From NCBI RefSeq assembly GCF_037975245.1, contig NC_092571.1:25682564-25746563 (forward strand): a DNA stretch of 64,000 bases, read 5' to 3'. This DNA comes from Apostichopus japonicus. Taxonomy: Eukaryota; Echinodermata; Holothuroidea; Aspidochirotida; Stichopodidae. The notes under the pieces were generated by a model, which had not been told where the DNA came from, did no database searches, and saw only the letters and a list, made by a program, of their open reading frames with translations. Positions 45,611 to 62,150 of this stretch are shown in pieces; the stretch's first letter is position 1; each line of letters begins with the position of its first letter. Made by a program: the position numbers and the translations under genes.

Positions 45611-48600
45611 ATTATTTCAACTAGATAATCATCTCAGTACCTGTAGACATCAACATGCTTTGGGGTAATGAAAATGACATTCCTTATAATATGTATTCAA
45701 CATCATTTGAAGAGAGTGTTCTTGTCAAGTTTATTATATCATTAACATTTTCCTTAAGAAACACCAGAGACATAGTTTAGACTTTCACTAATCTCAGTTA
45801 TATGTAACAGCAATCGGATCTTACTCTTAAACCTTCACCTGAACAATCCATGAGATCAACCAGCTTTATACATCATTTCAGAATGAATAATCCATCCCAA
45901 GATGAGGATAAAGTCTTAGAATGTACGGATTCCTTCCACTTGTCTCTTTGCTACTTAATGCTATTGCACAGTTCAAGCAACATTTATCCACATTTTTACA
46001 TTTATGCATAAAGGATATGCAAAATAGGCAAATTGCTACCCAGATGTGTAAAGATGTGACTATAGTTTTCACAAGTTTATGAGACCTACTAGACACGAAT
46101 AAATATCACTTTTATTTGAAACAGTTCTTGTTTGCTGAAGACTGGCATGAATTTGCCTGTTCAAAATATTTCTTATATAATAACAGCTACAACTTATTTT
46201 CTCCTCTGCAGGAGTTGTTTTGCAACCTGGGGAACCTTACACGGAACTGGTCGTGGATGAAATTCGTCTTTCAATGGCTTCTCTGGAATTTCGTTCTAGC
46301 AAGACGACAGGTATTAATTCATCACCTTCGAACATGTTCATCTTTGATAGTCATCATCTTTGTGTCATCAACTTTGCTTCATTACCTTTGAATTTTTAAA
46401 TGCATATTACTTTCATGCTCAATCTTTAGAATTGCCTGTCTTTCATAAATATCCTTTAATATTTGAAGTCTTTGTTTATTTAAAAAATTGTAAGTTTATT
46501 TATCTCCTTTCTCTCAAGTTGACCTTTTTGTTAAAATATAAATAAATAAATATACGTAGTTATACCTGATAATGTGATGACTCAAAAGGGTTTACTGACC
46601 AGTGAGATTCCCTTTGAAATTCGAGTTTGTTATAAGAAATGCCAACAGTGATACATATCATAACATCAGACAGAGAAATAAAGCATGGAGTTTGGACTGT
46701 GTCAAAACTCCACAACATCATTTGTCAGATTATACAGTCAAACTTCGAACATTAGCCTAATTACCTGAGGCTGAACTACTGACTCTCATCAAACAAGATT
46801 ATTGCAGTTTATTTTTATTAGCAGTGCCCGAAACAATATCAGTATATTGCCTGAATTTTCAAAGAAATATCTTATGGGGGGCTCCCATGCCCCCCCCACC
46901 CTCCTATGCCGATTGTGCAAATATACAAAACTAAACTATCAATAATATACATTAACAGTATTCAACCATGACTGACCTCAATTATACCAGTTCTGTTTAG
47001 TACCTATACAGGCGTCACATACACTACTGATTCCGGTTTAATGAGTGTTACTTCATAAGACGTATGAAATTGCACAATTATATTTTTGACATAATGATTG
47101 TTTCACAATTAAAATGAAATTCGCAGCAATCATGGCACACGATCATTGTGATATTTGATTGACTTTCCCGCACTGGTCATTGTCTCTTTCACAGTTCCCT
47201 GTCCGACGTCTCACGTGGTTGTTACAACAGTAAAAGGAGAATACCTTCTCTGCTCATTGGAGAAAGGGTCCACCCCTCAGCAAAGCCTTGATCTGGTCCT
47301 GCAACCCAAAGAAGAGGTCACATTTTGTATTGAAGGGACTGGTAATTCAAAGCTATTGTTTTTGTTTTTGTTAAAGCTGATTTTTCTGTATTTTCACCAT
47401 ATGTTGTCAAAGCTATAGGTTATTACACAATTTAAGTGTTCCATTGATCAAACTAAGACAACATACTTGATTGGTTTACTCCTTTTTCTCATGTTTCCAA
47501 AGAATCTGTTCACAGAGCTAGTAAAAATTCTGTTATATTGTAAAGATACAGCATGTCTGAGAGACTTTTCTGCCAGAAGTAATAAACAGGAATTTTTGAC
47601 TTTTCTAAATTGTTTTTTCTATTTCACCAGCACTGCATAGTTATGGCATTATTAGTAATCACATTTACCAAAACAATTAAAATGCTAAAATTTTTAAATT
47701 GATAATATTTCTTTGCTTACCTTTTCTATGGTTAAAACAAGACAGAAAGGCAAGAAACTTTCATGGAAAACTTAATGTTTGCTGTGTTGATCTTTTTAAT
47801 GTAGATATCTTTCTTGTTTAAACACATCATTATCCAGGGAATAATTTGATTTGATATTACATTGCAAACAGCTATGCAAAATTGGCAAATTGCTTTAAAA
47901 ATGCAAAGAAATTCGGCTGTTTTGTACACAGAAACCATAGTTTTTAGACAAAGTTTGCAGTGACTTCAAAACTGCTATTCAAACTTGAAACTTACAAATT
48001 GTTTCTCTGATATAGGTCGACAGAATCATTCACAAATCAGACCATCTGAAAGAGTCACACAAACTTTTCATTGATGAAGTTATTCTCAATCAAAGTTCAT
48101 TCATCATCTGAGTATCATTCAGCTGCCCTTTGGTACATTCAGGATGCAGGGCAAGTCTTTAACGGTCGTCCGGTTGTCCGAGACGACCAGATTACTGTTC
48201 GGGCAACCCAGATCAGCTTTATTGAGTCGTTTGGCCGGCCGGCCCATGACTGGTTGTTTACATCAAATTAAGATTGCATGGTAACGAAATAACCTCAAAT
48301 TGGAAACAATGATAAATTGGTATCACCCCCAAAGCAGGTGTTCCATTCACTGAAACATAGACCCATGTCCTACAATGAATAAAGTGTTCATAGATATTTT
48401 TGCAACTTTTTTCTCCAGCAACCAAACTTGCTGTCAGGACAAACAGAAAGTGAGGACCTGGTTGTTTTTGAGAGACACCAGAATAAAAAAAATAAAATCT
48501 TGCCCTAGAGGGTGTTGATAAGGTCAATGATGCACACTGCACATCATAAGCATACCCATGACTTAAAAATAGAAATTGTGAATAACATACGCCAAGATTG

Positions 48601-62150: not shown

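Follow-up and report, generated by a model that had tools for sequence, protein, structure and literature searches.

Three multi-domain arrangements of the nucleoplasmin-like (NPL) domain are given in PMC4414354, namely nucleoplasmin, NPL-FKBP and HD-tuin. In this study, we describe a predicted gene in a stretch of 64,000 nucleotides of Apostichopus japonicus contig NC_092571.1 (the window; positions without a contig prefix refer to it), in which an NPL domain and an acidic linker appear to be joined in one frame to two zinc fingers, a tyrosine-recombinase-like domain and a SANT-like domain. This fused architecture is supported by the comparisons reported here. We consider it probable that the locus is one gene, encoding an 836-residue NPL-linker-DNA-binding protein with a captured recombinase unit, and that it works as proposed below.

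The NPL-FKBPs (FKBP39, Fpr4 and plant FKBP43) share with the predicted protein an N-terminal NPL domain, the pore Asp and Tyr and an acidic stretch; they carry an FKBP domain, whereas fingers, a recombinase remnant and a three-helix domain take its place here. The plant HD-tuins (HD2) likewise combine an NPL domain with an acidic linker and end in a zinc finger (PMC4414354), but they are known from plants, and the two fingers found here are part of a recombinase module. Neither NPL-C2H2 nor NPL-recombinase proteins are among the three arrangements of PMC4414354. A wheat C2H2 paper (PMC8375173) contains the phrase "nucleoplasmin-like domain"; among the open-access titles listed, none described NPL with C2H2 arrays or with a recombinase in animals, and such proteins may exist in automatic annotation.

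Degenerate host tyrosine recombinases without the catalytic Tyr are represented by the Crypton-derived (DUF3504) genes KCTD1, ZMYM2-4, QRICH1 and WOC (PMC3212892). These have lost the second Arg, which the window copy keeps, and have other partner domains. We rejected membership of DUF3504/Crypton, as no DUF3504 profile matched at E up to 10. Host-transposase fusions resemble the present gene in joining the DNA-binding part of a mobile element to a host chromatin domain. Known examples use DDE transposases, whereas a tyrosine recombinase and an NPL domain would be combined here. The KRAB, SCAN, ZAD and BTB families of zinc-finger proteins show the same principle of a single N-terminal domain, for oligomerisation or as an effector, on many DNA-binding proteins; the N-terminal domain here would instead be a histone-chaperone ring.

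Gene model

On the plus strand, thirteen predicted exons bordered throughout by GT-AG sites form a single open frame from ATG 45655 to TAA 62150. The frame encodes 836 amino acids with acceptor 50109 and 833 amino acids with the in-frame acceptor 50118; the latter agrees with the preliminary description, which had proposed 13 exons in one in-phase frame of 833 residues. The phases of the 12 junctions are 1, 1, 1, 1, 1, 1, 1, 2, 1, 1, 1 and 0, and the four models obtained (834-836 aa) differ at exons 2 and 11. The features of the locus are as follows.

45612..45664, plus strand: exon 1, part of the 5' untranslated region, ATG 45655 and the first 10 coding bases; in-frame TAG 5' of the ATG, after the acceptor bordering 45612
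46212..46310, plus strand: exon 2, first half of the NPL domain; phase 1-1; 99 nt, as in paralogues C11:3458k and C22
47195..47341, plus strand: exon 3, second half of the NPL domain, with the pore-position Asp69
48854..48988, plus strand: exon 4, end of the NPL domain (Tyr93) and start of the acidic linker
50109..50228, plus strand: exon 5, acidic linker with the psi-KxE motif VKSE; alternative acceptor 50118
51750..51815, plus strand: partial duplicate of exon 6 (its 5' part, differing at 3 of 66 bases), with a weak donor and likely to be skipped
52061..52162, plus strand: exon 6, acidic linker with VKTE
54602..54742, plus strand: exon 7, acidic/Ser linker
54743..54866, plus strand: read-through of exon 7, 37 further codons, TAG and AATAAA at 54861; possible alternative 3' end
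55662..56466, plus strand: exon 8, C2H2 finger (55727-55786), CCHC finger (55979-56038) and start of the recombinase-like domain with box I Arg483 (56354-56356)
56994..57472, plus strand: exon 9, remainder of the recombinase-like domain; Arg604 kept, Met629-Asp630 for Gly-His, His640 (57352-57354) for Tyr
58673..58855, plus strand: exon 10, acidic, with Asp or Glu at 33 of 61 residues; weak acceptor
59933..59986, plus strand: exon 11, from the joined frame
61030..61067, plus strand: exon 12, from the joined frame
61953..62150, plus strand: exon 13, C-terminal three-helix (SANT/Myb-like) domain and stop
62266..62276, plus strand: polyadenylation signals, overlapping AATAAA at 62266 and 62271, about 115 nt 3' of the stop

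Splice sites were scored with a generic matrix drawn from general knowledge and untrained on the host species, covering 962 GT sites and 989 acceptor sites in the locus. The donors of exons 4 to 8 ranked 2, 1, 3, 12 and 4, respectively, and the acceptor of exon 8 ranked 30, consistent with a transcript that would be spliced from the NPL exons into the recombinase-like part in vivo.

Two repeats lie beside these exons. The 5' part of exon 6 is covered by a tandem duplication of about 310 bp (51547-52127; 91% identity across 278 columns), in which the exon part is identical at 63 of 66 bases. Immediately 3' of the acidic exon 10 stands a long GAT-type microsatellite (58900-59600). A coding poly-Asp extension of exon 10 into this (GAT)n tract was rejected because the poly-Asp frame differs from that of the exon.

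NPL domain and acidic linker

The NPL domain that had been named for the N-terminus was recovered by profile search: PF17800 matched residues 2-93 with 72.4 bits (E 5e-20; curated cut-off 23.4). Among proteins of solved structure, fly FKBP39 (E 0.006) and plant FKBP43 (E 0.0019) were related by sequence, and Pfam gave no FKBP domain in the predicted protein at E up to 10. The pore residues of the FKBP39 NPL domain, His24, Ser26, Asp62 and Tyr86 (PMC4414354), correspond to Arg22, Ser24, Asp69 and Tyr93, so that three of the four are identical; Arg at the position equivalent to His24 has been reported for fungal NPL-FKBPs (PMC4414354). In comparison with its closest paralogue, C11:3458k (60% identity over 130 residues), the proportion of synonymous differences (pS) was 0.80, which is saturated, and that of nonsynonymous differences (pN) was 0.20 over 83 codons, indicating that the NPL domain is under purifying selection. 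Part of an intron, 96 nt long, can still be aligned between the two genes at 75%.

Published NPL proteins have long acidic stretches C-terminal of the domain (PMC4414354). The acidic/Ser linker described earlier was found in this position, with 33 acidic and 6 basic residues among its 158, longer than the 100 residues taken as the minimum for such a stretch, and this acidic tail is probably disordered. It carries two psi-KxE motifs (VKSE and VKTE), a number reached by 7 of 2000 shuffled sequences.

Three NPL paralogues lead into DNA-binding exons

The genome search covered 671.6 Mb in 35 contigs, including the window. Thirty NPL places exceeded the PF17800 cut-off, with exon 3 of the window gene among them; they are counted as places rather than proven genes because the matches are mostly single-exon. 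Comparison with 28 finger places revealed C2H2 arrays 3' of five of the 30, on the same strand, at distances of 2.4, 4.1, 5.2, 6.5 and 10.1 kb. Five is a lower bound for such pairs, since the scored finger candidates were the best 150 of more than 1,100, and the arrays represent at most four independent cases, since those at C11:6264k and C11:9547k are identical. Three further places, C1:7258k, C1:6902k and C16:8275k, had no C2H2 array 3' of the NPL match within their readable 5.6, 2.0 and 1.9 kb. Clusters of C2H2 zinc-finger matches were also observed at C17:1.38-1.77 Mb and C1:19.7-20.8 Mb.

Three of these genes could be read through. The gene at C11:3458k has three NPL exons (99, 153 and 138 nt) and, 10 kb on, a strong acceptor and a three-finger terminal exon; a frame containing VKNEPE is located between the two parts. 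In C22:10259k, the NPL exons measure 99, 150 and 69 nt and are separated from three fingers by an acidic linker exon that contains IKNE, and C11:9541k has an NPL exon of 147 nt, a low-scoring linker exon with VKSE, a second linker exon and then four fingers; Pfam zf-C2H2 matched at both. The finger exon is entered in phase 1 in all three, as in the window gene, an agreement that is no independent test for each exon because the search for paralogue exons was limited to phase 1. What it shows is that, read in this phase, both the NPL and the finger frames are open and correct. Thus, the window gene and these three paralogues have in common phase-1 NPL exons, linker exons and a DNA-binding exon entered in phase 1 on the same strand.

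Among the matches listed, the NPL place of the window is the sole one near a recombinase match, which lies 8.5 kb downstream on the same strand. The next-nearest pair is 174 kb apart and on opposite strands (34 places compared), and the other listed recombinase matches on NPL-bearing contigs are at least 0.7 Mb from NPL places. Together with the paralogues, this suggests that an NPL domain and linker precede a DNA-binding part, which at this locus would be a recombinase unit. We regard the paralogue comparison as decisive for the predicted join. The earlier claim that NPL and finger-recombinase parts belong to one gene is supported by the way the paralogues run from NPL exons into a phase-1 DNA-binding terminal exon. 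With 30 NPL places, five of them accompanied by C2H2 arrays, the putative NPL-DNA-binding family is therefore as unusual as the single fusion.

The source family is a dispersed recombinase

Relatives of the DNA-binding half are abundant in the genome, and the counts for such large families are lower bounds. Exon 9 matched at least 93 places and exon 13 at least 82, the window included in both, and exon 8 gave at least 113 matching segments, with some loci counted twice. Many of these matches belong to open frames 650-1500 aa long that are intronless in the recombinase part. Seven copies on six contigs are 96.8-99.8% identical over 3.0-3.5 kb, and we therefore conclude that the family spread recently. 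All 20 fetched copies contain the finger-recombinase frame. In 15 of them it is followed, with no change of strand, by a relative of exon 13, which occupies a separate downstream frame in 14 and shares the recombinase frame in 1. The order of fingers, recombinase and SANT-like part thus belongs to the dispersed family, as the preliminary description had held in calling it a separate transposon-like family in animals.

Alignment of this family with 24 phage XerD-like proteins using hhalign gave P 1.1e-4, in register at the box I Arg-Glu, the hairpin Lys, the box II Arg and the Gly-His, whereas two unrelated alignment pairs used as controls gave P 0.13 and 0.18. Pfam Phage_integrase was matched by 3 of the 20 members (best 8e-5). 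By homology, the family is a divergent tyrosine recombinase. A MOM1-like profile weakly touched 4 of the 20 members scanned (best 0.033), and two PDB matches to the family profile, at E 0.78 and 0.98, were not taken as evidence.

A C-terminal signature of the SET domain was observed 5' of the fingers in at least 5 of the 20 fetched copies (L101, L105, L109, L112 and L114). Pfam SET was found in 2 of the 8 frames scanned, above the cut-off in L105 (1.6e-6) and just below it in L101 (3.3e-4). Some copies of this mobile family therefore appear to carry a piece of a histone methyltransferase.

The window copy has lost catalytic residues

The predicted protein contains a C2H2 finger (C274-C277-H288-H293) and a CCHC finger (C358-C361-H373-C377), both as first described, and all eight zinc ligands are invariant across the 20-row family alignment. 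Its recombinase-like domain is 27-34% identical to its relatives over the aligned part. Arg483, Glu486 and Arg604 are kept, whereas the hairpin Lys is replaced by Arg, the Gly-His by Met629-Asp630 and the catalytic Tyr by His640. In the 19 relatives, the box I Arg and Glu, the box II Arg, the Gly of the Gly-His and the catalytic Tyr are each present in 19, and the hairpin Lys and the His of the Gly-His in 18. The position of the box II His of XerD is Thr in the window copy and in 18 of the 19 relatives. Because the catalytic Tyr, the Gly-His and the hairpin Lys are absent, we infer that the window recombinase is dead as an enzyme. We conclude that the DNA-binding half is, as judged from its residues and relatives, a domesticated, catalytically dead recombinase.

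The domain encoded by exon 13 is homologous to the part downstream of the recombinase in other copies. Its predicted structure consists of three helices (pLDDT 65).

Weighing one gene against the alternatives

A number of observations weigh against a single gene with a recombinase-derived half. The gene model is a prediction from genomic sequence. The exon 10 acceptor is weak (rank 304 of 989), and other poorly scoring sites are the exon 5 acceptor 50109, at rank 139, and three donors, those of exon 2 (rank 92), exon 9 (77) and exon 11 (76). The evidence for the recombinase identity of the window copy is carried by its family, and even there the hhalign probability was 56% only. Taken alone, the window recombinase had no match in Pfam, in PDB or by hhalign, and none among viral contigs. 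NCBIfam gave no match. In a motif test on the window copy, 41 of 400 shuffled sequences reached the observed value, which is not significant, and the AlphaFold model of the domain is useless (pLDDT 34). Hence, the claim of a tyrosine-recombinase-like domain holds through the homology of the family (the hhalign and Phage_integrase results above), and it found no backing from the window copy by itself. For the C-terminal SANT/Myb-like domain, the homology to other copies stands, whereas the name SANT was not confirmed: exon 13 had no Pfam SANT/Myb match, no convincing PDB sequence match and no significant Foldseek match, with a GT-1 trihelix at rank 5 (E 7.9).

The linker exons were compared with chance candidates. 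Exons 5-7 are ranks 1-3 of 213 phase-compatible candidates in 48989-55661 by combined splice and codon score, and their scores of 17.0, 16.3 and 12.4 each exceed 10.8, the best single score over 60 Markov controls. Harsher controls came from real sequence of the window, in which single candidates scored up to 14.9; in the stretch 1-6700 (minus strand), the third-best candidate reached 12.6, compared with 12.4 for the third linker exon. For the codon table, exons 2, 3, 8, 9 and 13 and two single-exon frames of the window served as the training set, with exons 5-7 excluded. The codon score of exon 7 (0.25) is below the 95% point of open intronic stretches (0.31), and the opening 100 codons of exon 8 score 0.04, within the open intronic range. 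The codon component is a weak discriminator, and the NPL paralogues give stronger support to the linker exons than do the exon scores.

The best-surviving alternative, which we consider unlikely, divides the locus into two units: an NPL-acidic-tail protein of about 288 aa with a poly(A) site near 54861, and a recombinase gene starting in intron 7 or at ATG 55673 in exon 8. Beyond the exon 7 donor, the frame stays open for 37 codons and is closed by a stop, after which come an AATAAA and G/T-rich sequence; the gene may also give a short NPL-only isoform with its end near 54861. However, with 23 copies of AATAAA in the 17.4 kb scanned, one close to a stop is not unusual. Exon 7 and its extension differ in codon score (0.25 and 0.03), but both values are in the intronic range and do not decide the matter. 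Intron 7 is the least CpG-depleted intron, with an observed-to-expected ratio (o/e) of 0.78 that is compatible with a promoter, and exon 8 offers candidate ATGs. Along the locus, intron CpG o/e is 0.40, 0.52 and 0.46, compared with 0.72 and 0.68 in the flanks; depletion alone is no mark of one gene because positions 1-31000 of the window are equally low (0.45). Mobile-type copies elsewhere in the genome have no nearby NPL place, a point in favor of two separate genes. By contrast, two points argue for one gene: the donor of exon 7 (rank 12 among 962) and the acceptor of exon 8 (rank 30 among 989) agree in phase, and in the paralogues the NPL and linker exons are continued by a DNA-binding exon entered in phase 1.

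Alternatively, a decaying recombinase copy may have landed 3' of an NPL gene and be read by accident, forming an inert genomic fusion. The distance from the fingers to the catalytic part is 35 residues in the window copy, compared with a median of 165 in relatives; about 130 family residues are absent there, in addition to the catalytic residues, and the low identity to relatives over the aligned part fits decay as well. Yet the 1284 coding bases of exons 8-9 are open, all eight zinc ligands and the box I and box II Arg are kept, five introns are in phase and the C-terminal exon is intact, which makes an inert fusion rather improbable. It is highly improbable that the protein is an active tyrosine recombinase, guided by the NPL ring to mobilise itself or other DNA: both catalytic Arg positions are kept and the near-identical dispersed relatives suggest recent movement, but His stands for Tyr and Arg for the hairpin Lys, the Gly-His is gone and a large deletion precedes the catalytic part.

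Other features of the window

Rfam and tRNA scans of the window gave one match only, a U2 snRNA-like sequence of 86 nt at 31109-31194 (49.7 bits, cut-off 46), which is probably a shortened copy. A single-exon open frame at 39647-40597 has an fn3 domain (E 1.4e-7) followed by a hydrophobic stretch. Another, at 32316-33602 (429 aa), has by eye the look of a secreted or membrane receptor and no Pfam match. On the minus strand, an open frame at 19866-20507 matches C-terminal sequence of the mannose-6-phosphate receptor family (E 1.5e-11).

Proposed working and implications

For the single predicted gene, we propose the following model. The N-terminal NPL domain would form a pentameric ring and bind histones, as reported for the NPL domain of FKBP39 (PMC4414354, PMC5476585). 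The acidic tail that follows would offer its two psi-KxE motifs, which are of the SUMO type. The C-terminal half, comprising the two fingers, the degenerate recombinase, the acidic stretch and the three-helix domain, would bind DNA without cutting it. By gathering five weak DNA-binding tails, the ring would strengthen DNA contacts through avidity, and it would bring histone-binding surfaces and tails that may be SUMOylated to chosen DNA. The product would be a chromatin-bound regulator, probably a repressive one.

If the model is correct, the NPL-C2H2 and NPL-recombinase proteins would add two arrangements, both in an animal, to the three of PMC4414354, and would make the histone chaperone ring a multivalent, sequence-directed chromatin factor. 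The locus would also be a clear case of tyrosine recombinase capture, in which donor, capture and loss of catalysis are directly comparable because near-identical dispersed copies of the source family persist in the genome. More tentatively, and as a possibility that we would not yet favor, the nucleoplasmin-type ring may be a general N-terminal module of DNA-binding proteins in this animal, comparable to KRAB in tetrapods and ZAD in insects, and the fusion may bind the ends of its still-mobile relatives, load or modify histones at these sites and silence them with a domain captured from them.
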